From Pyrenula massariospora (lineage: Eukaryota; Ascomycota; Eurotiomycetes; Pyrenulales; Pyrenulaceae): a DNA stretch of 64,000 bases. The notes under the pieces are model-generated. The model saw only the letters and a program-made list of their open reading frames with translations, was not told the DNA's origin and did no database searches. Of the stretch, positions 3 through 34,964 are shown piece by piece; the stretch's first letter is position 1; each line of letters opens with the position of its first letter. Location of the stretch: assembly GCA_021030905.1 (NCBI GenBank), contig JAGFMI010000022.1:124001-188000 (forward strand). Reading direction: 5' to 3'. The position numbers and the translations under genes are program-made.

Positions 3-3000
3 CAGAAGGTACATCCCTCGTCGCGCGATTTCTACGGAGCGCTAAGCTATCTCCTAATCCTAGGAACGCCGGCTCCGCTCCACAATCAGCAATCCAGACA
101 TGATGGCCGCAACCCAGGCACATCCACCGAGAGTGACGAGACGGCTCTTGGAATTACTCGCGCCGGAACATGGGGAGAAAAAGATGCCGTTCCTCCCATC
201 AGCCACGAAGAGGCGACGCAAGATTTCGAGACACTTCGCAAAGAACTCTCCGAGGTAAGCCAGCAACGGACAAGGAGCAGGGCATCGACTATCCGAACCA
301 AGAGCCATTTGTCGCACACACAGACCAATCGAACAAACTCAAGGAGAACTAGAACAAGAGACTCGACCGTCTCTGACGAAGGTCCGATTTCCAGTGATGC
401 GATCGGGGAAGGCAAAGATTTTGAATTGGATGGGTTTCTGAAGGAGGGACATTTTGAAAAGAGGACTGAAGCCGGAGAGTCGGCTAAGAAGGTTGGAGTC
501 ATCTTCAAAGACCTTTCCGTGAAGGGATTTGGTGCGACCGCTGTGCTCGTGAAAGATCTACCGCAAGCGATTCTTGGGACGTTTGGTCCTGATTTCTACC
601 ATTTGATCTGCCGATTCATTCCTCAACTCGATTTTGGGCAAAAACCACCAACTCGGACTCTATTAAACGAGTTCACAGGTGTTGTGAAAGATGGAGAGAT
701 GATGCTGGTTCTTGGACGCCCCGGTTCGGGATGCACCACCTTCCTCAAAGCTATTGCCAATGACCGCGCCTCTTATGCGGAAGTATCAGGGGACGTCACA
801 TATGGTGGCATCTCTGCTGAGGAACAAAGACGCTCGTACAAGGGTGAAGTCGTTTACATGCCTGAAGATGACCAGCATCTTCCTGCCCTTAACGTATGGC
901 AGACGTTGAAGTTTTCCCTGATGACCAAGACTAGGAAAAACTATGCCAGCGACATCCCCGTGGTCATCAACGCACTTCTTAGAATGTTTGGCATAACGCA
1001 TACTGCGGGAACATTGGTGGGAAATGAGTTTGTAAGAGGTGTTTCAGGGGGTGAGCGTAAGCGTGTCAGCATTGCCGAGACACTCGCTACCAAATCGGCT
1101 GTTGTGTGCTGGGATAATTCAACCCGTGGCCTCGACGCCTCCACCGCCTTGGATTATGCGCGATCGTTAAGAGTGATGACCGATATCTCAAATCGGACGA
1201 CTTTAGTCACCCTATACCAGGCAGGGCAAGAAATATATGACCTGATGGACAAGGTTCTTGTAATTGAAGAGGGCAGATGTATCTTCCAAGGTGCAGCAAA
1301 TGAGGCCAAAGCCTACTTTGAAGGCCTCGGATTCTTTTGCCCACAGAGACAGACTACTGCAGATTTCTTGACGTCAATTGGCGATCTGAACGAACGGCAG
1401 TTTCAGACCGGTCGTGAACGCGAAGCACCAAAAACTGCAAAAGATCTGGAAGAGGCCTTCAGACACTCAAAGCAATACCAGAACGTGCTAAGAGAGGTGA
1501 AAGACTACGAGCAGCAACTCCAAGAAAGCGAACATGCTGATGCTCGCCAATTTCAGTCCGCTGTCGGTGAGACCAAAAGTAAGCATGTGTCGAAAAGTTC
1601 CAGTTATACTGTTTCATTTCCCCGCCAGGTGTGGGCCTGCACTCTAAGAGAATTTTGGTTGCTATGGGGTGACAAGACCACCCTCTACACGAAAGCTTTC
1701 ACTTTAGTTTCTATTGGTCTCATTGTTGGCTCCCTCTTTTATGGTGAGAGCCTTGATTCGTCTGGCGCCTTTTCCCGGGGTGGTGCGCTTTACATGTCGA
1801 TTGTTTTCTTGGGCTTCTTGCAATTGACCGAGTTGATGAAAGCGGTGTCAGGTCGGGACGTTATTTCCAGACACAACCAGTACGCCTTTTATCGACCCTC
1901 GGCCGTCGCGATCGCCCGTGTCATCCTCGACTTCCCGGTCCTTCTTGTGGAGGTCATTGTCTTTGGAATTCTCATGTATTTTATGAGTGATCTGGATGTG
2001 GATGTGTCAAAATTCTTCATCTTTGAGCTATTCATCTATTCTACTCTAATTTGTTTTACGGCATTGTACCGTATGTTTGCAGCACTTTCACCGACGATTG
2101 ATGACGCTGTCCGCTATGCTGGCATTGCATTCATCATACTCGTCCTCTACAATGGCTATATGATCCTGAAGCCTCAGCTCGTTCAACGGTATATTTGGTT
2201 TGGATGGCTCTATTATATCGTTCCACTCAGCTACTCATTTGAAGGCGTCTTGACAAATGAATTTAGCGACAGAAATCTTCAGTGTGCTCCTTCCCAGTTG
2301 TTCCCTCAAGGATCGGCTGCACGCCCGCCGTATCAAAGCTGTACTCTCACGGGATCTCAGCTTGGACAAACAGTGGTTCCGGGCTCCCAGTATTTACAGT
2401 CTAACTACCAGTATACACGATCGCATCTATGGAGAAATTTTGGCGTGGTGATCGCCTTCACCGTGCTGTACATCTTGATCACTGCTGTGGCCTCGGAGCT
2501 ATTTTCATTTGCTGGTGGAGGCGGAGGAGCACTAGTGTTCAAGAAATCGACAAAAGCGAAACGAGCATTGAGACAAGACGCTCAAGCTAATGATGAAGAG
2601 AAGATCAGAGACCCGCAAAGTAGCTCCAGTTCAACCCGGAGTCCTAACTCAGACGACAAAGGAGCCGACTTTTCCGAGATATCCAAGCGCGGAAGTATTT
2701 TTACCTGGAAGAATGTGGAATACACAGTGCCTACTCAAGGTGGGCATCGCAAGATTCTTGATAAAATCCATGGGTACGCTAAGCCTGGAGTCATGATTGC
2801 TCTGATGGGCGCATCTGGAGCGGGGAAGACGACGCTCCTGAATACACTCGCCCAGCGACAGTCATTGGGTGTGGTATCAGGGGAGATGCTGGTAGATGGG
2901 CGTCCTCTTGGGCCAGACTTCCAGCGAGGTACTGGTTTCTGTGAGCAAATGGATCTACACGACGGTACTCAGACGATCCGAGAAGCACTAGTCTTCTCGG

Positions 3001-4741
3001 CTGTCCTACGTCAGAACCGGAGCACTCCAGAAAAGAAAAAGCTGGACTATGTTGAGAAAATCATTGATCTTCTGGAGCTCCAAGACATTCAGGATGCTTT
3101 GATCATGTCTCTTGGAGTGGAGCAGAGGAAGCGATTGACAATAGGGGTTGAGCTTGCTGCAAAGCCTTCTTCACTTCTGTTCTTAGACGAGCCAACTTCT
3201 GGGCTTGATAGCCAGTCCGCTTTCTCAATTGTACGCTTCCTGCGGAAACTCGCAGATGCTGGGCAGGCTATTGTCTGCACCATCCACCAGCCATCATCGA
3301 CTTTAATCCAACAATTTGACAGAATCCTAGCCCTCAATGGGCACGGAAGTACCTATTATTTCGGCAAGATTGGAGATAATGGTTCTATTGTCACGAGGTT
3401 TTTTGCTGACCGTGGAACCATCTGCCCACCGGAGAAGAATGTAGCTGAATTCATTCTTGAGACTGCTGCCAAAGGAGGAAAGCGTGGACCTGATGGGAAG
3501 AGACTAGATTGGAGCAGAGAATGGAAAGAGTCAAAAGAGAACAAAGAACTCCTTGCGGAGATTGAGGCTCTCAAAACAGAACGGCAAAAGCTGCCTGCAC
3601 CAGAGGCAAAGACGCTTCACGAATTTGCTGCTCCTCTTTGGCTCCAGATTGTTGCACTCACCAAACGTACATTCATCCAACAATGGCGGGATCCGTCCTA
3701 TCTCTACGGCAAGCTGTTTGTCAGTGTGATTGTGGGAATCTTCAACGGCTTTACATTCTGGCAATTGGGGAACACAATCACCTATCTCCACGATCGCCTC
3801 TTCTCTCCCTTCTTCGTGGTGGTGATTGCTCCTCCTGTCCTCAACGCTGTTCTGCCGAGATTCTATATGAACCGAGCGCTATGGGAGGCGAGGGAATATC
3901 CGAGCCGTATCTATGGCTGGATTGCCTTCTGCACCGCCCAAGTAGTCAGCGAAATACCTGCAGCCATCGTTGGTGGAGTGGTCTACTGGCTCTGCTGGTA
4001 TTACCCTGTTGGCTTGCCCACGGACAGCTCCACGGCCGGATACGTCTTTCTAATGACGATGCTCTACTTCCTCTTTCAAGCAAGCTGGGGTCAATGGATA
4101 TGTGCATTCGCGCCAAGCTTCACGGTCATCTCGAACGTCCTACCCTTCTTCTTAGTAATTTTCAGTGTATTCAATGGAGTTTTCCGTCCATATGACCAGC
4201 TTCCTGTATTCTGGCGATATTGGGTCTACTATGCTAACCCATCGACTTATTGTGAGTCTAACCCAATTCTGTGCCTCGGCAATATTGGCTAATCATCGTA
4301 TCAGATATCGGCGGCGTGCTCTCCGCGACGATGAGCAACATTCAGGTACAGTGTGCGCCTTCTGAGCTGACACGTTTCGATTCTCCTCCCGGCCAAACCT
4401 GCATGCAATATGCAGGGTCTTACGTGCAGAGCATTGGCCATGGCTACCTCAGTAACCCGTCCGCGACTTCGAACTGCGGCTACTGCCCATACGCGGATGG
4501 CACCGAATATCTCCGTACCCTCAACATATCGCCCGATGAGAGGTGGCGGGACTTTGGCATATTTCTAGCATTTAACGTAAGTAATTGGGCGTTAGTCTTC
4601 TTTTTCATCTACACCGTAAGAGTAAGGCAGTGGACTTTCGGTTTTGGTTGGGTATTTGGTATCGCCGAAAGGGCCATAGACAACTTCTTTGGTCTTTTCA
4701 GGCCTAAGAGAGAGAAAGTGGGAGCGAATGAGGCAGCATAG
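3..4741 (+). CDS. PDR-type ABC transporter (ABCG full transporter), 5' partial
   Basis: ATP-driven drug/metabolite efflux pump of the fungal plasma membrane, with order NBD-TMD-NBD-TMD. The first NBD has a CDR-type Walker A (GRPGSGCTT, near 714), the signature VSGGERKRVS and the degenerate Walker B WDNSTRGLD. The second has Walker A GASGAGKTT (near 2807), a variant signature VEQRKRLTIG and Walker B LFLDEPTSGLD. Hydrophobic helices follow each NBD. One intron at 4252-4304 joins NPSTYY to IGGVLSATMSN; the stop is 4739-4741. The frame stays open to base 3 with no in-frame ATG, and the N-terminal Ser/Thr/Arg-rich part typical of the family is visible from about base 60, so the start codon is probably upstream of the window. 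A possible intron at 9-63 (GTACAT...CTAG) would connect an outside first exon. Such pumps often lie beside secondary-metabolite genes, but this one is 14 kb from the UstYa block. Confidence 0.93.
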
Positions 4742-13851: not shown

Positions 13852-15145
13852 ATGATGGATCTATGGTCCGCGGCCACTGTTGTGGCGATCACGCTATCGT
13901 ACCTAGTTCTAGTGTCGAGCATGCGTGGAAAAAGAGCAGGAGAAACACCCAGCAAATATGGAATGAAGCGGCGCGAGGACTTTAGAAATTTGACCGTGGA
14001 TAATGCTCAAGCAATACTGAAAGATCTGACGGAGCTCGAATTCCCCAAGGTCATGGGTCTGTCAATTGTCTTTGCATTGTTCAAGGTAGGCTTCAACTCT
14101 TCAATCGCTACTAGATGATATGCGTAAGGCTGACGTACCTATGTCGCAGACCTATGGGATACCTAGTATTTCCTCGCTTCTACTTTCGACCGGCGAACTA
14201 GCGAATGTGGAGACGGCCTCGAAACGCACGGCTGATACTGGAGTTTTGCTTCTAGAATTCGCCCTGAACAGTCCTTCCTCCAAACGTTCGGTTCAAGCAA
14301 TAGCACGCATGAATTTTTTGCATGGTAGATACTTGAGAGCCGGAAAAATCAAGAACACAGACATGCTGTATACTCTAGGGGTATTCGCCCTTGAACCGGT
14401 CCGATGGGTCGAGCGGTACGAGTGGCGAAAACTTACAGATCTGGAAATTTGCGCCTCTGGCACCTATTGGAAATACATAGGGGAAGCCATGGAGATATCA
14501 ATGGATCCGCTTCCATCCTCAAAAGACGGTTGGCGGGATGGGCTGGGCTGGATCCAAGAAATGGAGACTTGGTGCAATCAATACGAAACAGAATTTATGG
14601 TTCCTGCGGACGTCAACCATAAGTTAGCTTTGGCACATTTAGATATACTGTTACTAAATGTGCCAAAGTCATTTCAACCTTCGGTCCACAAGACTGTGTC
14701 GGTCATTGTTGGCGAGCGATTGCAAAAAGCTATGCTCTTACCAACACCATCCCAAATTACCTGCTGGATTATTGGAACGATTGTCACTCTACGGAAGTAT
14801 CTCTTGCGCTATCTTACTTTGCCCCGTCCAGAATGGCGGAGAAAGGATTATGTGGCAGATTTCAATCGAAAGACCGGCAAGTACAATGCAAAGGAGTACC
14901 TTTCTCACCCGTGGTATGTGAAGCCAACGTTCAAGCGCCGCTGGGGGCCTCGCGGCCTTCTGACACGAGCCTTGGGACGCAAACTTCCCGGAGATGATCA
15001 CGACAAGTACGCACCGGAAGGGTTCACCATCTCCGAAGTTGGTCCGGCGTCTGTGCGCTGCAAAGGTCTTGACGAGATGGAACGAACCGAGAATCGATTA
15101 TCTCAAATACAGCTGGGTGGATGTCCGTTCCATGGACGGGCGTGA
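13852..15145 (+). CDS. ER-bound oxygenase mpaB/mpaB'-like (DUF2236 / Lcp-type)
   Basis: Predicted membrane-tethered oxygenase, 409 residues after removing an intron at 14086-14149. A hydrophobic anchor occupies residues 3-23. The body has the family segments TYGIPSISSLLLSTGEL, ARMNFLHGRYL, DMLYTLGVFALEPVRW and YEWRKLTDLE, and ends in GCPFHGRA. From the literature, MpaB' of the mycophenolic acid pathway cleaves a farnesyl side chain, and bacterial Lcp cleaves polyisoprene; both are haem-type oxygenases. The His in FLHGRY is a candidate ligand. The substrate here is unknown. It lies 4-9 kb from a P450, UstYa and alpha/beta hydrolase gene, so a role in the same metabolic block is possible but only inferred from position. 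Confidence 0.85.
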
Positions 15146-17359: not shown

Positions 17360-18379
17360 ATGTCAAAGACAAAAACAATTCATGTACCACATCTTGGTGG
17401 CATCGATGCTGGGTACCAGATGCCACATCCCTACGATGGGAGCAAACCTACTCTTGTCCTCGTCAATTCTTTCACGACATCCTCGGAGCTTTATCAGTCC
17501 CAATACGCCAACGAGAAACTCAATAAGGTAATGAATCTGCTGGCGATTGAATTGCTTGGTCATGGGCAAACAAGAACACAGAGCGAAACTTTCACATACT
17601 GGGATACGGGTCCGTTTGTCTGCCGTGATCAAGGTTTCTAGCGTGCGCTAAATACTTACGCCAGCGATCATGAACCTGCAAGTATTGGATGCTCTCAGCG
17701 TCAAGGGTAAAGTATTCGTTCTTGGGACGTCACAAGGAGGTTGGATTACGGTCAGAATGGCACTCCTTGCCCCGGGTCGTATTACCGGCATCATCCCGCT
17801 TGGCACATCTATGGACTACGAGAGCGAAAGGACCCGAAAGTTGGGATGCTGGGATGGCGTCGCCGCTTGCACAGGACCGATCGACCAATGGACAACAAAG
17901 TCTGCAACGCCCGACTTTGAGCCGGACAATGGATTCTGCGACTTCTTGATCGATGTCGGGTTCGGAAAGGGATGCCCGGCTGAAACGCGAGATTTCTGGA
18001 GGAAGACGATCAAGGAGAATTATCCTGGGGACGATGGAAGAAAAAGAATGAGGATGGCGGCAATCAATCTGCGGGAGCGGGATGGACTTCATGGGAGGCT
18101 TTTTGACGTGCGATGTCCGGTCTTCTGGTTGCATGTAAGTCGTTACGATGAATATTGGGGCAGTTGGAGATTGTGAAATATATGATGCTGATGATACTCA
18201 TTCAGGGCACGTCGGATGTTGTTTATTCAGTCGGCAATGCAGAGGAAGAGATCAAGATGTTTGTGAATTCGCCAGATGCGAAGTTGCAGGTAGTGAAGGA
18301 TGGACAGCATTTCTTGAGCTATTCGCACCCCGATGTGATTGACCAGGCTCTGATCGATTTTGTGGGCAAGTATTCCTAA
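17360..18379 (+). CDS. Alpha/beta-fold hydrolase
   Basis: Predicted soluble serine hydrolase, 297 residues, substrate unknown. Introns at 17610-17664 and 18135-18205 restore one frame. The nucleophile elbow is GTSQGG (Gly-x-Ser-x-Gly); the acid is probably the Asp of GTSDVV and the His that of DGQHF, in the right order and spacing. Early segments LVLVNSFTTSSELY and LLGHGQT fit the oxyanion region and strand order of the fold. The first donor is a weak GTCCGT, but the splice yields TYWDTAIMNLQVLDAL, which looks like an unbroken helix. The start at 17360 is the first ATG; the frame is open slightly upstream without one. It precedes the P450 on the same strand and could act on the same pathway. 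Confidence 0.87.
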
Positions 18380-19058: not shown

Positions 19059-20874
19059 ATGATGACCTCAATTTTATGGGCAGTAGCCCTCGTCGTCGGT
19101 TTTGGAATTGCATCGTCTCTGGCCTTGCTTCTTGCCCAGCTCTGCTATAATCTATACCTCTCTCCTTTAGCCAAGTTCCGCGGCCCTTGGTACGCCATAA
19201 CATCCTCCTTGCCGAATGCAGCCGTGTCTCTTTGGCGAGTTGAACCGCAATGGCTGTTGTCAACTGTAAAGCGATACGGAGGTAAGAAATGATCCATGGG
19301 TTCCCGGAGATTATCGAAGGTATATTTGCTGAACGACTCCAGTCAATGATCCTACCCGCATTTCTCCTAATGTGTTACTATTTCCGAAGCCTTCTTCGCT
19401 TAAGGCTATATACTGGGAATCAAACCTCAATGAGAAATCTCGCCAATACGGAACCGGTGCTCTCGGACCCCCCAGTATCTTCACGACTCTGGACTCTAGG
19501 ACTCATAAGGCACTGAGAAAAGCTGTCGGTGGACCGGCAGTAAGACCAATCATGCCATGTGGCCGTTAATGGGAAACGGCTGACAGACCGTGTAGTGGAG
19601 CATTGGCTCTCTCAAGCACGAATGGGAGACTCGCATCGACAACCATATTCTACTGTTCTGCGGAAAGATGGCAGACAGAGCCAACACGGGTGAGCCAGTT
19701 TGTATGTCAGACAGATTTGCGTAAGTCACTTGGTACCAGGTTCTGCACCTGATGTGCTAAGGGTATTACAGCGAATTCACGGCTGATATTATGACCATGT
19801 TTTCGTTCTCAGAGCCATGGGGCTTCGTGAAAAATGGCCGTGATGAGCGCAAACTTCCGACAAGGATTGAAGCTATATGGGTTTGCCGCTCGATTTGTCC
19901 TTCTTCGAGATCATCTCTTGAAAATGCCCTCCATCAGAGGATGGCTGCTACCAAAAATGTCTGACAAAACGGGGATTGGCTCCTTGATCTCCGAAGGGAA
20001 CAAGCAAATCGCAACTCGCGAAAAGCAAAAAGCTGCCGGAGAGAAAACCGGAAACCGGGACTTTCTTCAGCAGTAAGACTCCGCTGGAAATATTCACAGT
20101 ACCGAATCAATTTCTAATAAACGACACAGGTGTCTAGACGCGCGCATTGACGGCCAACCCTTGAGCCATATCCAGAGACTCGCGCATGTAACAATCCTCA
20201 TCCAGGCCGGCGCAGACACGACTGGAACGATGCTGGGAAGCACCCTCCGCTTCTTGCTGCTGGATCCCGAGAAGAAACAAAAGGCGCAAGAAGAGGTAGC
20301 AGCCGCCGACGCCGCTCACCAACTGTCTCAACCCACCCAGTACGAAGAGACCCGCGCCCACCTCCCCTACGTCGGCGCCTGCATCACCGAAACCTTGCGC
20401 CTCAACCCATCCGCTCCTAATCTGCTCCCGCGTGTTGTCGGGGCCAAGGGGGCTGTCGTCGATGGACACTACGTTCCGCCCGGGACCGAGATCACGAGTA
20501 ATGCGTACGTTGTTCAGCGGGATCCAACGCTCTACGCTCCGGACCCGGAGAGCTTCAGGCCGGAGAGGTGGCTGGAGAGTGTGGAGAAGGCGAGGGAGAT
20601 GGAGAATGCGAGCTTTACGTTTGGGATGGGTCCGAGGGTTTGCTTGGGGAAGGATATTGCTTTTCTGGAGCTCTGGAAGCTCGTACCTGAGGTAGGAGGA
20701 TCTCTCGTTTTGTCGTAAAATTCGAAGATTTATGAAGATATGCTGACAATGGTCTAGATGATCCGAAGATTCGACTTTGAGCTTATCGATCCTGGAAAGT
20801 TTGTCGCGGTCGGGGGTGTTGCATGCAACCAAGGCTTCATCGTTAAGCTTAGCGCGAGAAAAGGTGGAAAGTGA
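19059..20874 (+). pseudogene. Cytochrome P450 monooxygenase with one-base frameshift in exon 4
   Basis: Membrane-anchored class II P450 of about 507 residues. Introns 19282-19342, 19540-19595, 19721-19771, 20073-20129 and 20692-20757 are all well formed. Motifs: N-terminal anchor with LYLSPLAKFRGPWYA, I-helix AGADTT, ETLR (ExxR), PERW and haem loop FGMGPRVCLG. The summed exon length is one base over a multiple of three. The frame reading EPWGFVKNGRDER ends at 19850, and the sequence continues as NFRQGLKLYGFAARF one base later, in the AAA at 19851-19853. No intron fits there. As given, the protein would terminate early and lose the haem site; one surplus A explains it, so either a recent null allele or a sequencing error. 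It faces the UstYa gene tail to tail (76 bp apart), which suggests a shared pathway. Confidence 0.85.
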
Positions 20875-20950
20875 TCTGAGCACTATGTTAACTTCTACAG
20901 TCATCCTCAATTCATGAAATCTCTTCTACTCTTAACAATCCACGCAACTC

Positions 20951-21955
20951 CTACCCCACCCCTCCCTCCCGCCCATCAGGAAACAAAGTGCTATGCTCAT
21001 ACCCAAACAACTCATAATACCCCTCCTCCATCGGCACAAGCGGCACATCCGCCGGCGTCCTCATCCTCTCATACTTCCCACCATCAACCCCATGCCCATC
21101 CCTCCACTCCACCAGCTGCTCAAAATCCCGACACCGCTTGTTGATGCTCATGTCGGGAAAGGCCCACGGCTGCGTGTCGGCCCACTGGAAGGTGATGATC
21201 TCGGTGTCGGCGTGGCACATGATGGTCTGCAGCAGCATGTCCGTGCAGTGGCGCAGGTGGATCCAGAACAGGCGGTCCTTTCGCCGCTTGTAGCTTTGTG
21301 AATTGTTGGAGAAAGGGTAGTCGGCGAAGGCGAGTTGGCGCAAAGAGTTGAGGCAGTGGATCTGGTGGAAGACTTCGAGCGTGCCGATGTAGGCGTGGGG
21401 TCCGAAGTGCCAGAGGGGGTCGGGGTAGCGGGCGACGGTGGAGGGGTCTTTGCCGAGGGCGAGGATGTCTTCTTTTGTGAGGGAGAGCATTTGTAGCACT
21501 TCGTACTCTTCGTAGAGCTCGTCGGTCGAGGGGCCGGGCTCGAGGCGTCCGAGGCCGGGCGAGGCTGGTGGGAACAGCGTGCCGTTGAATTGGACGTCCT
21601 TGAATCTTGGTGTCATGTCTTTGAATACGGGAGCTGCGTTCTGTGAGAAACTTGTCTTGGCCAGGAAGTTTCTGGTTGACTCACAGTACAATGTGGTCAT
21701 TTCGACGGCCTTCCTCATCGTCATAGCATCGTCTCGTCTATGGAAGACAACCAACGTTACGGTTAGGAGGAAGACCATCACGTTTACCGCAGAGCAGAGC
21801 CATATCCCGAGATTTCTATGTCCACAGGTAGATGTTCTACAATCTTCAATGTTGTTGCCGTCAATTTCCGGCCCAAGAAGCTTTTCTTTGGAGCTTTCGA
21901 ACTTCTGGTCCGAGTATTTGCTCAAGGGAAAGTATTTGAATGATTTCTTGAACAT
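20951..21955 (-). CDS. UstYa-family oxidase (DUF3328)
   Basis: Type II membrane protein of 334 residues, no introns. One transmembrane helix at about 49-71, then a lumenal domain with both family motifs: HQIHC (about 197-201) and HCTD (about 236-239). UstYa/UstYb-type proteins are copper-dependent oxidases that form macrocyclic ether or C-C bonds on tyrosine and other side chains in fungal RiPPs such as ustiloxin, phomopsin and asperipin; related members halogenate or oxidise other natural products. The open frame extends a few codons upstream, but the first ATG is at 21953-21955. It is 1,058 bp from, and divergent to, a secreted repeat protein (23014-24158) that resembles a RiPP precursor, and convergent with a P450. 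Confidence 0.9.
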   Translation of the reverse strand: MFKKSFKYFPLSKYSDQKFESSKEKLLGPEIDGNNIEDCRTSTCGHRNLGIWLCSAVNVMVFLLTVTLVVFHRRDDAMTMRKAVEMTTLYCESTRNFLAKTSFSQNAAPVFKDMTPRFKDVQFNGTLFPPASPGLGRLEPGPSTDELYEEYEVLQMLSLTKEDILALGKDPSTVARYPDPLWHFGPHAYIGTLEVFHQIHCLNSLRQLAFADYPFSNNSQSYKRRKDRLFWIHLRHCTDMLLQTIMCHADTEIITFQWADTQPWAFPDMSINKRCRDFEQLVEWRDGHGVDGGKYERMRTPADVPLVPMEEGYYELFGYEHSTLFPDGREGGVG

Positions 21956-23013
21956 TATCGTGCGCAATGATGGAACTGATGGTATGTTTCCGCTGCATGG
22001 AGTTCTAGAAGTCGAGAAAGTCCCTACCGATATTGAATGTCACTGACTACTTTATCGTATCAGGGTGCAAGAAGTGGCACGACAATTCCAACTCTGCCAT
22101 GTTTGCTATGAGTAGCTGTTGCACGAGTCCTGGCTACGTCGACCACATAACAAGTGTTTCACAAATGCTTCCAAGGTGTCGTTCTGATCCTCGGGATCCG
22201 ACATGTTACCGTTGGTCCGCTGTAATTCTCCGGAACCTGTCTGCCAGCATTGTTTGCTCGAAATGCTCACTTGGTTTGCTTGGGACGTTGTTAACTTCTA
22301 TGTCATCATCGAATAACGAATCCTTGCACGCCAGTGTACTAATTTTTGGATATCAGTGAGAGATTTTGGTTAGAGCCTGGTCGTATTCATGGTTCCTGTC
22401 GGTAAACTGTGTACACTTTCTAGCTCTGTTCAGGTAATTAGGCGGAAGGATACAAATATGTCATAACATGCTTGGTGGTCACAACTCTCGTCTTTCTTTC
22501 TCTTGCGAGGTCACTGTTTCGGATCTTTGCTACTGTAATGTGCTATCGACAGCGAGGATACTACTTCTAAATTTGTACTGAAAGTACAGCGAGGTTGCAC
22601 GGCTAATGGAGCGAGGCGTAAGTCCGCGCGCCGTAATGTATAAGGTGATTCAGAGCCACCGGAGTGATCTATGAGTGCCTCTAGGGATTTTGCACCAATT
22701 CTGGAAGAGACGAAATGACTGTGGTAGGAATATTGCTCGGCTAACACTTGTTTGCCTTTCAATTTATAAACCTTTCGATCAAGAGACCGCAAATATGCAG
22801 CTAGGCGTCGTGAGCACTTGAAGCCAGATTTCGAGAGTTCAGACAAAGATCCTCTGAACTTCGTCAAGATGTCAAAGAAAGGGGAGTCGCTAGAGATATG
22901 AAAAAGCTGTTTAGGTTAGCCCTTCACTGACAACCACCATCCGAGACATTTCATTTTCATCTCTTTCTATCCCATAAAAAGTCCACACCTGTTGAGCATT
23001 CATCCACAAATCA
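21956..23013. other. Intergenic between UstYa gene and repeat-protein gene (divergent promoters)
   Basis: No gene I can support. A minus-strand frame (22511-about 22900) lacks an ATG. It is preceded by a plausible intron 3' end (RC of 22900-22915 reads GCTAACCTAAACAG), so a small spliced gene is conceivable, but the product has no motif. A CATAAAAA element at 22973-22980 lies about 35 bp before the repeat-protein ATG and may be its TATA element. Confidence 0.35.
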
Positions 23014-24158
23014 ATGATGCATTTCTCCACAGCCCTTAGCAGTGCTCTGTGGGCACACGCTGCTCTTCCAGCTGCTATGCCCCCTAGAGGTAAGAGTTAG
23101 CCAAGGACAAACCTGTCATTGATCTATTTGCCACTTAGGCTCCCCACTATCACCGCTCCGTATCGATGACAACTAAATGGAACTTAGGACAAGATCAAAT
23201 GTCCCAAGGCATCGAGACGGATGCTAGGGACATTGACACTAGCTCTACAGTATCTGATGATAAAGGCATTTACATGGGACACCTTCCGAGATATCTGGGC
23301 TCCGGCGCTGTCGCAAAACAGGATGAAACCATTAAAGAAGCTCGCGGCGGCATTTATGATCCTAGATTTGACAAAGCAGAACCGCCGCAAGGCGAAGAAA
23401 AAAGCGGCTTTCACCAGCGTGTCAAAGAAGCTCATGGCGCCCTCTACAATCCAGCATTTGAGCCGGACGAGCCGGAAGGGGACGAGAAAAGGGATGCGAG
23501 TGTCAAACGGGCTTACGGTGCGGCCCTCTACGATCCTGCATTTGAGTCGGACGAACCGGACGGGGAAGAGGACGAAAAAAGGGCTAGTAAGTCTCTCGAT
23601 ATCAGCCTTGCACACTTTGTCGGCAGCCTTGACAAGAAATCAGCTAGTTCTCGAAGCCTCGAACAGGGAGTCGCTCATCCAGCGGCCTTCGCTGGGCTTC
23701 ATCCTACCTATCCGCTGGGCATGTTCTTGCCATCAAGGGATAAGACGCTTGAGCGCAAGAGCACCTATCCCAATCTTTCGAAGGACCGTCTAAATGATGA
23801 GGAGCCTCCGGGCCTCTACACTCATGTTTCGCTCCCAAGCTCGAAAGATGGCGAGAATGGATATAATATGGATTCAATGGGCAGCGTGAAGAATGCATTT
23901 AGTGTTGAGCGTAGAGACGGCCTGCAAGCTCTGTATCCTCCGTCCAAGTCAGCCTGGTTCAAACCCATATCAAAGGAGCCAGAGATGGATCATGAGCATA
24001 ACAGTGAGCATGGAGATGACATAGCTTCGGCGGCGAGGGCACTTGAGCGTAGAGACGCGGTATACGTGGATAATAAAAAGTTTGTCGTCAACATCGACGA
24101 TCCAAAGGCCATCCATTTCGATCCGCCGCTTGGACAAGAGTGGGAGCGTGAGGTCTAG
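23014..24158 (+). CDS. Secreted repeat protein with KR sites; candidate UstYa-type RiPP precursor
   Basis: Two exons (intron 23090-23187) encode 348 residues. Residues 1-22 form a signal peptide (MMHFSTALSSALWAHAALPA). Residues 69-157 hold three imperfect units of about 30 residues: KEARGGIYDPRFD, KEAHGALYNPAFE and KRAYGAALYDPAFE, each followed by an acidic Pro/Gly tail (DEP-x-G-(D/E)). Units two and three end in EKR, a Kex2-type site, and a further KR precedes AYG in unit three. ERRD occurs twice later (FSVERRDGLQALY and ALERRDAVY). Signal peptide, Lys-Arg-bounded Tyr-containing repeats and a neighbouring UstYa gene are what dikaritin precursors such as UstA show. Against it: only three diverged units and a long nonrepetitive C-terminal half. 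It could instead be a Kex2-processed secreted protein of other function. The nested acceptor at 23138 would give a truncated product. Confidence 0.7.
23316..23582 (+). repeat. Three tandem imperfect ~30-codon repeats inside the secreted protein
   Basis: Units lie at 23316-23402, 23403-23492 and 23493-23582 (about 29, 30 and 30 codons). The best-kept part is Gly-(x)-(Ile/Leu)-Tyr-(Asp/Asn)-Pro-x-Phe-(Asp/Glu) followed by an acidic stretch with Glu-Pro. The units have diverged at the DNA level, so this is an old in-frame duplication and not a microsatellite. Confidence 0.8.
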
Positions 24159-29169: not shown

Positions 29170-31626
29170 TCACCTCCCAGGGGACCGCAGCGGCCAATCC
29201 GCCCTCTCAGTCAGCTCCCCATACGCTCCTGCCCTCGCCGCCGCGGCGTTTGCGTATCCGGCGTTCGGCTCCGGGGCCAGTTTGGCGAAGTCGGTGATCT
29301 CGGTCCCAGGATGAGTGATCGGGAAGTTCTGGGAGTCGAGACGGAAACGATAGTGCCGCTCTTCTTCGAGAGAGGCCGAGTTGCCGGAATCAGAGCCAGA
29401 AGAGTGGATGTAGAGTCTCGATAGGCGGCGAATAGGCTCTTGTTTGGGATCTGCTGGACTGAAGGGAGATCCTGTGGCCCATTGGTGGAGGGTTGCGTCG
29501 GATGGGTCTGTTGTGAGGTCGAATGTCTCGTTATGGTCGAATGAGGGTTCTAGGGGCGATTTTTCGGTTATGGTGGTGGGAAATTTGGAACGGAGAGTAG
29601 GGGTCTGCAGGTCGTCTGGCGGTCTGCGGCTTGAATGCCGTTCTGGGATCCCAGGGGCATATTTATTAGTTTCGCGCCTTCCTGCCCGGCTCCATTCTTC
29701 GTAGAGATTGGATAGATCGGGGGTCTTCTTGGCATCTTGATCGGTCTGCTCTGTGTTCTCACTCTCGTCTCCACAATGCAACCGAGCCACATTCGCATAC
29801 CTCCAAATACAATCAGCTAGCCGTTGCTGTGCCTGTGCTGCCTGGATTCGCCTCTCTGGCTCCTTTTGTAGGCACATCTTCAATATCTCCAACATAGGTT
29901 TCACCACCGCAAACGTCGATCCATTATCTTTCCGCTGTTTCTTCCGTGCTTCGTTCTCCAGTCCATCACACCAAGACTCTACTTGACCGAGATTCGCGTG
30001 AAAGCTTGCGTCAGCTAAGCCCCCTCCTCGGCCTGCGGTGCGATTCTTGGCTGAACGGTGCCGAGCAAAGGATGCAGCGCTCTTTTTGCAGAGAAAGGTC
30101 AAAATATCGACGGAGATAGCACCGAATGCGAAACAATCTGACAATAGAGCACTGTGTTCAGCTGATTCAAAAGTCTGGACCACTGCAGTGCGGGCGTTGG
30201 ATGCTGCTTTCAGGGTGTTGTTACTGCTCTGAGTAGATGCGGACGAACGTGAAGGGTTCCTCGTGTGGCCGATCCGCGCAGTGTTCCGGAAGCTCTGAAA
30301 ATTGGCATCCCGCCTTGAAAAGGTACGCTGTGAAGAAGGGTTGGATCCAGAGGAGTTCGACGACGAATTGATCGAACCCTTTCGAGTCCGGTCGAGAGAG
30401 CTACTGTCTTCATTCGAGGAAGAAGATTGGAGTTTCTTGAAAGATGGGGACACAGGCTCGTTGACGCGGTCCTGGAAGTCTGTAGCTAGGGGGGATGTGA
30501 TTTGAGGTATATCTGAAGTCCAGCTGGAACGCTCGCCGAACGAAGTCACGGACGGAGAATCCGATACTGGGCTAGTAGCAGCCGATGCGGATGGCTTTCT
30601 AGCTGTTCGTCCACCAGAATGACCCGTTATCTTTGCCGGACCGAACGTTTGCACAGTGGCCTTTCGTCGCCATTTCTCAGGTGGTGCGTATTGATATACT
30701 TCCATGTCGTTAGCGGCTTCCTGACCGCCGATCAGGTTAAACGCTTCGCTCTGACCGAGATATATCTGATAACGATCATCGATAAGAACGTTGGACGGTC
30801 GAATAGCTCCATGATTTTGGTCTTTAGAATGAAGCCATGCCAGTGCCCTCGCAAGGCAGTGCGGCCAGTTGACAACAAGTTCCCTCCGCTCTACCTTTTG
30901 CAATGTCTCAAAATGCTTGGGTGGGTCCTGCAAGAAAGACTTCAGTGTTACTTCTGTGGCAGGCTTTAGAAGGACCCAAGTGTCGCTTTTAACGGTGTAT
31001 GATGCATAGACTGATAATAGATGGTCATGTCTGATCCGCCTGAGTTGAGCAACTTCCTGCAGCACATCTTGCTCCGTCAAGGCGTCACTGGGCCGTCCAA
31101 GGGCAATCTTTTTTTGAACAAACACACTGGATGGTTCGTTGGGTAATCGGACTTTTTCGAGACCTTCGCGACTTAACAAAGGGAGGTTGAGTCGGAACCC
31201 AGTGGCTTCGACTGGAATGACCTCGTTGTCAGTAAAGCGGTCATGAGCGCCTTCCGTAATCGGCCGGACTAAGAATTTGAACTGTGCTTTATAGAAACGT
31301 TTGTCGAGACCAAAATCTGGATGAAAAGATAGTTTAAGAGAAGGTATGGCGGAAAGAGGAATCGGAAGGTCTCCATCATCGTACGATTCGTCGACCAGTC
31401 CGATAATCTGATCCGGAATTCCCACGTCGAGAAGGGTAAGAAAGAGTCGTCGCGAACGGGCCAGTATCCAATCCAAGTATGTATTATTCGTCAAACCATC
31501 TCCAAAGGCCAGGGTTCTATCCACCAAGTGCTGCTCTTCGGGATTCAACTGGTCAAGGACGAATTGCCGCGTCACCGTCGCTTGAATGGTTTGGTCCGTC
31601 CACCACGTGGATGATTGTGAGGGCAT
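29170..31626 (-). CDS. Protein kinase-fold protein, probable pseudokinase
   Basis: Single exon, 818 residues. After an N-terminal region of about 160 residues comes a kinase-like lobe: a VAIK-type Lys in FVQKKIAL, an alpha-C-like segment EQDVLQEVAQLRRIRHDHLL, and a catalytic-loop equivalent HGAIRPSNVLID (codons at 30790-30813 on the other strand). The HRD Asp is replaced by Ala and no DFG is seen; the corresponding position reads YLGQSEAF. The Gly-rich loop is also absent. It is therefore likely catalytically dead and acts as a scaffold. A long Ser-rich insert (about residues 330-480) interrupts the C-lobe. The second half has FGAISVDILTFLCKKS and MLEILKMCLQKEPERRIQAAQ, the usual end of a kinase domain. 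The start is the ATG at 31624-31626. Cellular role unknown. Confidence 0.8.
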   Translation of the reverse strand: MPSQSSTWWTDQTIQATVTRQFVLDQLNPEEQHLVDRTLAFGDGLTNNTYLDWILARSRRLFLTLLDVGIPDQIIGLVDESYDDGDLPIPLSAIPSLKLSFHPDFGLDKRFYKAQFKFLVRPITEGAHDRFTDNEVIPVEATGFRLNLPLLSREGLEKVRLPNEPSSVFVQKKIALGRPSDALTEQDVLQEVAQLRRIRHDHLLSVYASYTVKSDTWVLLKPATEVTLKSFLQDPPKHFETLQKVERRELVVNWPHCLARALAWLHSKDQNHGAIRPSNVLIDDRYQIYLGQSEAFNLIGGQEAANDMEVYQYAPPEKWRRKATVQTFGPAKITGHSGGRTARKPSASAATSPVSDSPSVTSFGERSSWTSDIPQITSPLATDFQDRVNEPVSPSFKKLQSSSSNEDSSSLDRTRKGSINSSSNSSGSNPSSQRTFSRRDANFQSFRNTARIGHTRNPSRSSASTQSSNNTLKAASNARTAVVQTFESAEHSALLSDCFAFGAISVDILTFLCKKSAASFARHRSAKNRTAGRGGGLADASFHANLGQVESWCDGLENEARKKQRKDNGSTFAVVKPMLEILKMCLQKEPERRIQAAQAQQRLADCIWRYANVARLHCGDESENTEQTDQDAKKTPDLSNLYEEWSRAGRRETNKYAPGIPERHSSRRPPDDLQTPTLRSKFPTTITEKSPLEPSFDHNETFDLTTDPSDATLHQWATGSPFSPADPKQEPIRRLSRLYIHSSGSDSGNSASLEEERHYRFRLDSQNFPITHPGTEITDFAKLAPEPNAGYANAAAARAGAYGELTERADWPLRSPGR

Positions 31627-33149: not shown

Positions 33150-34964
33150 CTACGACGAAGGACTGTGCCACTCACCGACAGAGGACAACAGGTCAAAATT
33201 GACCGCTGACTGCGGCGATAAAACTTCAGTGGAAGATGGCGATTTGTCGTGTGCGATGAGCTCCAAAGCTCTTGGTATGGGTGGAAAAGGGATTTGGGAT
33301 AGCGCCATTTTCTCTTGCAATAGAGACAGAGGTTGCCCGCGACCATTCGTCAAAGAAGAAAGGAGACGGCTTAGTGCGTGAAGTATATCCCGCGGGCCTT
33401 CCCTCATTGTATCGCCCTGTTGAATGGAAAGTGCTGGCACACAGTTAATAACATCTAGAAGGCTATTGGCGATCTCAAAGATTTTGAGGACCTGAAAGAC
33501 GGTGGTCTTTAGCAAGGAATGCGAAGATGTCTTGAATGTCTTACCATGCCGGGCCCGTGAGCTATCATGGAATCTAAAGACACCTTAGAAAGAAAATGCA
33601 GCGAGTCTTTGGCAACATGCGCCGGGTATGTCAAGGACAAAGGATCGTCGCCCGATTCGGACGACATTGACACGTTCTTCATAGCCAGCTGCCACACTAG
33701 AATACGCATCCTCATTAAGGTGAGTAGAAGAAATAAAAATTTTCTAAGGCTAGGGGTAGCATACCATTGTTGCGTCACCCGGATATCCGTGGTCTGGACC
33801 TCGTTTCCATAGGGAATGAAGGCCGGGCCTTGTTGCAAATGATGCTGCAACTGGGTGAAAGATTGTGGACTGTACGTCTGACCATTATCATGGTCTTTTA
33901 TCCCAACGAGAGTACCTTCTACAGCCACGAATAGTTTCACTAAGCTCAAAAAGCCCATGAAAATTGACGGATTTTCTTCGTCCTCGATGCGAGGAAGACC
34001 AATTGTGTTCCGCAGAACCACAGGAATATTGTCGTGTTGCATCGAATGGCCTCTTTCGGTGATAAATAGCAGCCAGAATATGTTGCGTCGACGCCTCTGC
34101 TCCGCAAAAGGCAGGCTAGAATAGCTGTCTTCTCGATCCAAACCCAAGATCTGACAGAATGTTAAGGATTCTCGTAACAGTAGAGTCGATGTGTACCGCT
34201 TCTTCTTCATAGCATAATAGACGTGAAGGAAAAAGGGTATCAGCATGGCTGAGAGGGTCATACTCTCACGATAGTCATACTGTATTCGGCACCGTTCTGC
34301 ATCCATTGCAAACCTATCATACTGATTTACATTTGACAGAATCTCCGCGATCTCTTCACCACCGAGTCGTAACTGAGCACCGGTGGCGGCGCAAATAGCA
34401 CTTGCAAGTGCGCGGGTTTCATAATCATCTGGGTCTTTTCGCAGATCCTCAACTAAGACCGCCCGGTCGATGATAGGCCATACCGAGTACATCTTGTAGT
34501 GATATATCTCTAAGTACTTGGACAAAATCTCCACATCATTGCTGTTCTCATCACCCAGATATCGCACAGGATCTTCGATGGGGACTGAACGCGGAATCGG
34601 CTGAGAGTCATTAATCTCGCTTGATGGCGTTAGACCGCCAGCTGACAACGATGACGAATTTGCTTGCAGCCGAATGTCTTTAAGCTGGGACTTGATGCGA
34701 CTGGAAGTCGTTGTTCGTGGCCCTTTCGGACCAGGCTTCAGTGGCTGCTTCGCAAAGGAACAGTCGAAGCCAGCTTTGACACATGGTTGGCAAGGATGGC
34801 CCCCTAAACAGCGGATCTTCCTCAACCTGTCGAAAGTGGCAATTAGCATTCACCACGCTGAGCATTTCAAGGCTTGTCTAAGAGGGCAGACTTCACCCGG
34901 CTGGGTAATTAGAAGCACGGCCTCACCTGCAAGGGTCGCAGGCACGCGATCGTATCTCAGGCAT
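33150..34964 (-). CDS. Zn2Cys6 fungal transcription factor
   Basis: Sequence-specific regulator, predicted 553 residues. The zinc cluster is rebuilt by removing a 100-bp intron (34827-34926): exon 1 gives MPEIRSRACDPCR and exon 2 continues LRKIRCLGGHPCQPCVKAGFDC, which is exactly C-x2-C-x6-C-x5-C-x2-C-x6-C. The fungal_trans middle-homology region follows (ILSKYLEIYHYKMYSVWPIID, LREALTFCQ-like LRESLTFCQILGLDRE, and RRRRNIFWLLFITERG). A second intron (33492-33544) leads to a final exon ending at 33150. A further GTGAGT donor near 33170 could extend the C-terminus, so the last residues are uncertain. It sits 9 kb from the UstYa block; regulation of that block is only a guess. Confidence 0.88.

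Follow-up and report, generated by a model that had tools for sequence, protein, structure and literature searches.

A UstYa-linked candidate peptide locus, perhaps decaying, in Pyrenula massariospora

Introduction

The dikaritins reported by 2022 numbered only five (PMC10512285), and in a later definition of this class of peptides, the DUF3328 (UstYa) protein is the class-defining enzyme (quoted in PMC12048977). Asperipin-2a comes from a four-gene cluster (aprA, aprY, aprR, and aprT) that has one UstYa homologue and, in the available part of PMC6514808, no tyrosinase. Here we describe a UstYa gene and its neighbors in the fungus Pyrenula massariospora, whose genome (GCA_021030905.1) comprises 37.8 Mb in 33 contigs. 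They lie in a stretch of 64,000 nucleotides, hereafter the window, from contig JAGFMI010000022.1 (G000:C14:124001-188000; contig C14 below), and positions are those of the window unless another locus or contig is named. A preliminary description had placed a cytochrome P450 gene, a UstYa gene, and an open reading frame (ORF) with three repeats within 5.1 kb of this window (19059-24158). All three genes are present, and their sequences lead us to lean slightly toward a single-UstYa peptide locus that would work like those of the dikaritins and may be decaying.

UstYa genes have been linked to repeat proteins before: a UstYa gene lies near 1758 of 7878 published repeat-protein genes (KEPs), UstYa genes peak adjacent to repeat-protein genes, and Tyr-containing repeats are commoner near UstYa (65.6% vs 38.2%) (PMC7329392). 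The strict rule for a KEP in that paper is at least three repeats of at least eight residues between KR, KK, RK, or RR sites. Given how often KEPs lie near UstYa, and given the recurring pairs in the genome described below, the locus is less special than had been implied.

Results

Gene content, motifs, repeats, arrangement, and the frame break discussed below were read from the sequence. The P450 gene (+) and the UstYa gene (-) are convergent, with stop codons 76 bp apart, while the UstYa gene and the repeat gene (+) are divergent, with 1.06 kb between their start codons (Table 1); this spacer is possibly a shared control region. The divergent adjacency speaks against the explanation, somewhat unlikely in our judgment, that the genes are neighbors by chance, the acidic 348-residue product being an ordinary protein, secreted or of the cell wall, that evolves fast and contains a small internal duplication, and the UstYa and P450 genes being remnants or tailoring genes of another pathway.

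The UstYa gene is intact and, going by its sequence, certainly belongs to the UstYa family: its product, which has an N-terminal hydrophobic helix, matches PF11807 with an E value of 7.3e-43 and 147.4 bits (curated cut-off, 25). The product carries two HxxHC motifs, HQIHC and HLRHC, and all six His and Cys residues of both are invariant in 18 of 18 aligned proteins (the window protein and 17 database relatives). Paired HxxHC motifs of UstYa proteins are thought to form the active site. HQIHC had been recognized previously, whereas the second motif, first given as HCTD, is now read as the overlapping HLRHC. The closest database relative, P0001, shares 75% identity across 65% of the length, and the closest paralogue in the same genome, among the loci read, is at L019 (33% identity over 241 residues). 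Comparison with solved structures by sequence gave nothing meaningful (best E, 0.61). An AlphaFold model had a mean pLDDT (predicted local distance difference test) of 66.4 and a pTM (predicted template modeling score) of 0.57, and a Foldseek search with it against the PDB gave no match at E ≤ 0.001 among the 108 listed. Neither the structure search by sequence nor the model informs the mechanism.

The candidate precursor is 348 residues long, as first described, once the intron at 23090-23187 (donor, GTAAGA; acceptor, TTAG) is removed, and its frame is open over 348 codons; a rival acceptor ending at 23138 leads to a stop. In each of its three units, 22-24 residues long, an acidic stretch comes after the common pattern G-x-[IL]-Y-[DN]-P-x-F-[DE], and the repeat self-score of 71 was reached by none of 2000 shuffles (mean, 31.4; standard deviation, 4.6). 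The three repeats are beyond chance, yet imperfect. Between units, the proportions of replacement and silent change per site (pN/pS), from a hand-made alignment with 21-22 codons per pair and small counts, were 0.28/0.69, 0.28/0.44, and 0.10/0.38, with replacement below silent change in all three pairs. This pattern would suit a translated, constrained repeat and leans toward purifying change. No repetition is seen in the last 183 residues (their score was reached in 1310 of 2000 shuffles), which favors the view that an ordinary secreted protein lies beside the UstYa gene by chance; on the other hand, the pairing of a Tyr core with an acidic spacer recurs at two other UstYa loci (L022 and L028), which argues against it.

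A search of the genome for PF11807 gave 82 matches. Merged by our own rules, these represent about 59 genes, spread over 44 loci, of which 12 have at least two genes. Published counts are 9399 DUF3328 matches over 1461 strains (PMC7329392), or, by our own division, about 6.4 per strain, although the counting methods differ. With UstYa at 44 loci, some adjoining genes must be accidental, again in keeping with chance neighbors. We read 24 of the 44 loci (25 records; L021 and L022 overlap). At nine of the 23 loci other than our own (L012, L014, L016, L018, L021/L022, L028, L029, L032, and L034), there is a stronger repeat ORF, defined by a z above the 9.4 of our candidate and by three or more dibasic residue pairs, located 0.7-3.1 kb from the UstYa match. 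Loose basic spacers like those of our candidate occur at three of the nine (mostly KAR at L018, KKK/KTR at L016, and DRR/DRG at L032). The best z in a control scan of 59.4 kb (the window flanks and L011) was 5.4. Tyrosinase places lie within 7 kb of a UstYa locus in 6 of 14 cases checked, and the genome has one P_proprotein match, the domain of a Kex2-type protease.

Several of these loci are of interest in their own right. L034 holds a classical repeat precursor beside UstYa (3534-4184, -), in which 14 SPFY units (KRDVESPFY type) alternate with KR sites; a tyrosinase match (C4:509706) lies about 3.5 kb away from that of UstYa. At L018, an ORF 2 kb from UstYa (1022-1471, -) has ten Trp-containing repeats (SPEDASWANTKAR type) with six KAR, two KR, and one KK spacers. 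A large repeat ORF near UstYa at L014 (6979-8175, +) has His-His motifs (KRHHQGKT) and Gly/Ala/Asn-rich spacers, recalling the di-histidine types G-3 and G-8 of PMC7329392. Beside several UstYa genes, L022 (1574-1969, +) has three PHIYA repeats (KR-PHIYAEYIREAEPE type). The repeat ORF at L029 (226-804, -) has ten PQKASYEGVT units; in the same region (C30:226100-246200), two UstYa genes lie within 20 kb of nonribosomal peptide synthetase (NRPS) condensation and ketoacyl-synthase matches, possibly marking mixed or adjacent clusters.

The preliminary description had found no polyketide synthase (PKS), NRPS, or terpene backbone and no ustiloxin-type tyrosinase or methyltransferase, and our searches agree within their range. 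PF00109, PF00668, and PF19086 have no match in the window, other terpene-synthase or NRPS-like families not having been searched. On contig C14, the ketoacyl-synthase match closest to the UstYa gene starts at 481578, some 336 kb away, and no condensation-domain or PF19086 terpene-synthase match is listed. We rejected a PKS or NRPS tailoring role for the locus. None of the three families lies within 336 kb on the contig, which counts against chance neighbors left from another pathway. C14 has neither a PF00264 (tyrosinase) match nor a further PF11807 match among those listed, and a scan of 28 ORFs and ORF pieces, a part of those in the window, revealed no methyltransferase.

The P450 gene was searched piecewise only. 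Its C-terminal exon matches PF00067 (E, 2.2e-40), while three smaller pieces have no P450 match, and the donors across the six drawn exons are GTAAG or GTAGG. Among the 24 other locus records, the C-terminal exon has one match (L026, 34% over 80 residues, E ≤ 1e-4), so no related P450 regularly accompanies UstYa here, as chance neighbors would have it.

Table 1. Features of the locus and its adjoining gene in window coordinates
Feature	Position	Strand	Remarks
Cytochrome P450 gene	19059-20874	+	Six exons, one frame break inside exon 4
P450 exons	19059-19281, 19343-19539, 19596-19720, 19772-20072, 20130-20691, 20758-20874	+	Edges drawn by eye
UstYa (DUF3328, PF11807) gene	20951-21955	-	Single exon, 334 aa
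UstYa/precursor intergenic region	21956-23013	.	1.06 kb between divergent start codons
Candidate precursor gene, 348 aa	23014-24158	+	Exon 1, 23014-23089; predicted intron, 23090-23187; exon 2, 23188-24158 including stop
Precursor exon 1, putative secretion signal MMHFSTALSSALWAHAALPAAMPPRG	23014-23089	+	Last residue completed by exon 2; reading only
Precursor repeat units 1, 2, and 3 (span 23337-23582)	23337-23405, 23427-23492, 23511-23582	+	Residues 76-98, 106-127, 134-157
Alpha/beta-hydrolase-like gene adjoining P450	17360-18379	+	PF00561 E 6.7e-4 on ORF 17670-18176, below cut-off

Elsewhere in the window, a PDR-type ABC transporter ORF (309-4289, +), at a distance of about 17 kb from the UstYa gene, and a Zn2Cys6 transcription-factor ORF (33512-34849, -) stand on opposite sides of the locus; neither shows any sign of membership in the locus. 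The ORF at 14120-15145 (+) weakly matches MPAB_Lcp_cat, an endoplasmic reticulum-bound oxygenase family (E 0.0011, below cut-off). A kinase ORF (29173-31626) has two Pyrenula proteins as its best named relatives (56% identity over 90% of the length and 63% over 42%). Pyrenula belongs to the Pyrenulales (Chaetothyriomycetidae, Eurotiomycetes), and this single gene would by itself make the fungus a probable Eurotiomycete with ties to that order.

Discussion

The preliminary description had proposed a mini-cluster of UstYa type for a ribosomally synthesized and post-translationally modified peptide (RiPP), and of the readings considered this has the best support. The motifs, the neighboring repeat protein, the lack of a nearby backbone gene of the three families, and the pairing at nine of 23 other loci speak for it, but the degenerate repeats, few Kex2 sites, weak signal peptide, and broken P450 weaken it. 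Plausibly, the locus is one more case of a familiar type of cyclic-peptide pathway, though partly worn.

A number of findings weigh against a dikaritin-like peptide locus, beginning with the precursor itself. Its KR, RR, KK, and RK sites, at residues 126, 132, 156, 175, 215, 267, 313, and 322, stand on both sides of unit 3, at one end of unit 2, and at neither end of unit 1; with only unit 3 flanked on both sides, the protein falls outside the strict KEP rule. The "Lys-Arg ends" first ascribed to the repeats were thus overstated, Lys-Arg being found at both ends of repeat 3 only. Units 1 and 2 begin within Lys-Glu-Ala (KEA, at residues 75 and 105), and unit 1 ends in KS. The first account of a signal-peptide protein with three Tyr repeats is right about the repeats, but the putative signal is weak: its best 11-residue hydropathy is 1.17, compared to 1.78-2.77 in five of the nine other repeat proteins of the genome, those with a readable N-terminus. 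The poor Kex2 spacing and the weak signal would both be at home in a protein that neighbors UstYa by chance.

The basic sites also raise the possibility of a pheromone-like precursor, whose repeats would give unmodified linear signaling peptides and to which the UstYa gene would be unrelated. With KRDA at residues 126-129 and its two KEA sites, which resemble sites for Kex2 plus Ste13, the protein is reminiscent of alpha-pheromones and their KREA/KRDA processing (PMC6339444). However, the 348-residue product matches no Pfam family at E ≤ 10, mating-factor domain included (HMMER filters drop most matches above about 0.1), and Cys and Trp, which the pheromone-like peptides in the available part of PMC6339444 contain, are missing from its units. 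We consider this explanation very improbable and rejected it. A bolder alternative, quite unlikely in our view, is a single-UstYa and P450 pathway whose precursor is parceled mainly at Lys-Glu-Ala and single basic sites rather than repeated Lys-Arg, with Gly-x-Leu-Tyr-Asx-Pro-x-Phe cores and a cross-link unlike those of known dikaritins. If that were true, this one fungus would have a large and unexplored set of UstYa peptide loci with relaxed spacers, to which the locus would belong.

The remaining points against a dikaritin-like locus come from comparison with other sequences. No relative of the 348-residue product was found at E ≤ 0.1 among 5582 candidates of one protein database, even though that database holds the 75%-identical UstYa relative, and a search of the genome for paralogues returned only the product itself and a 0.73 chance match. 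The missing relative is a weak point, since only 17 UstYa relatives were found, probably through thin fungal coverage, and since precursors of such peptides evolve fast. The search equally gives no sign that the repeat protein is widespread without a UstYa neighbor, which the first description had named as grounds for dropping the cluster. The repeat scan found no repeat ORF above our candidate at 14 of the 23 other UstYa loci, and the absence of hits in the control scan is not significant, because about two would be expected in 59.4 kb at the UstYa-locus rate by our own arithmetic; the control stretch alone is too small to prove enrichment of repeat ORFs near UstYa. At three of the 44 UstYa loci (on C30, C17, and C31), a PKS or NRPS domain match is found within 20 kb, so UstYa by itself is no proof of a RiPP pathway, and UstYa proteins also act outside RiPP pathways (PMC12048977). 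The last point against is the P450 frameshift, already noticed in the preliminary description and present in the assembly between 19821 and 19864, in exon 4.

An overlooked intron was rejected as the cause of this break: nine open GT/GC-AG choices of 43-91 bases bridge it, and none has G at the fifth intron base, which leaves a pseudogene or an assembly error. The former would suit a decayed locus, that is, a once-working dikaritin-type cluster that is losing its repeats, Kex2 sites, and P450 and makes no product. This explanation is unlikely as stated, although it overlaps with that of a peptide locus perhaps in decay, and the probabilities of the readings therefore do not sum to one. Units 1 and 2, which lack a dibasic site at their start, and a repeat score below that of each of the nine other repeat ORFs fit decay as well. 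On the other side stand the intact UstYa gene with all six His and Cys residues kept, the open precursor frame, the lean of the unit comparison toward purifying change, and the chance that the P450 break is an assembly error. Taken together, the degenerate units and the frame break in the P450 point to a pathway that is young, relaxed, or in decay.

If a single-UstYa peptide locus is nonetheless at work, with our candidate as the secreted substrate of its UstYa neighbor, cleavage would release mainly unit 3 (AYGAALYDPAF and then an acidic spacer, with KR at either end), and the other units less surely. A membrane-anchored UstYa protein might then, through its paired HxxHC motifs, oxidatively cross-link the Tyr side chain of the Gly-x-Leu-Tyr-Asx-Pro-x-Phe core, and the P450, if still working, could further oxidize the product.

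Ordinary in kind, the locus is also incomplete and broken in part; it would add a minimal set of one UstYa and one P450 with an unusual core. Among the titles and opening lines of abstracts returned by literature searches, none dealt with it, though we do not claim that it is absent from print. Of wider interest is the genome: with roughly 59 UstYa genes spread over 44 loci, and with repeat precursors of several different kinds, this fungus would be well suited to work that matches UstYa enzymes to their peptide substrates.

Compared to known systems, the candidate precursor shares with KEPs an N-terminal putative signal, internal repeats, and some KR sites, but it has fewer than three repeats between dibasic sites. 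In size, the locus is comparable to the asperipin-2a pathway, with a P450 and no recognized reductase. Both have one UstYa-family protein, as the preliminary description had said of asperipin-2a, a Tyr-containing precursor, here a candidate one, and no tyrosinase or methyltransferase in the cluster as far as the available part of PMC6514808 goes. On the other hand, no transporter or isoflavone-reductase-like gene was recognized here between 14 and 29 kb, and in their place stands a P450; the asperipin-2a core, FYYTGY, is unlike the core here, and the repeats here are rarely flanked by dibasic residues. The ustiloxin and phomopsin systems likewise have UstYa proteins with paired HxxHC motifs and a repeat precursor, cut at Kex2 sites, to which ours may be likened, and the ustiloxin cluster includes a P450 (PMC12048977). 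They differ in having two to five UstYa proteins and a YxIx core, as opposed to one UstYa protein and no YxIx core, and in their tyrosinase and methyltransferase, neither of which was detected here in the searches described above. The clan R2 loci of lichen fungi resemble our locus in having one UstYa gene with two HxxHC motifs and in being unlike characterized dikaritin clusters; in the available part of PMC12048977, no conserved repeat precursor was found there, whereas a repeat protein is present here.

The locus has the DUF3328 protein of the later dikaritin definition, but it lacks the set of the older five-gene definition (tyrosinase, methyltransferase, several DUF3328 proteins, and transporter or peptidase). 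It is thus a possible dikaritin locus, with the class-defining enzyme present, with a putative leader, cleavage, and product, and outside the older definition. Altogether, this is a UstYa-linked candidate peptide locus of a known kind, neither a strict KEP nor a classical dikaritin locus.

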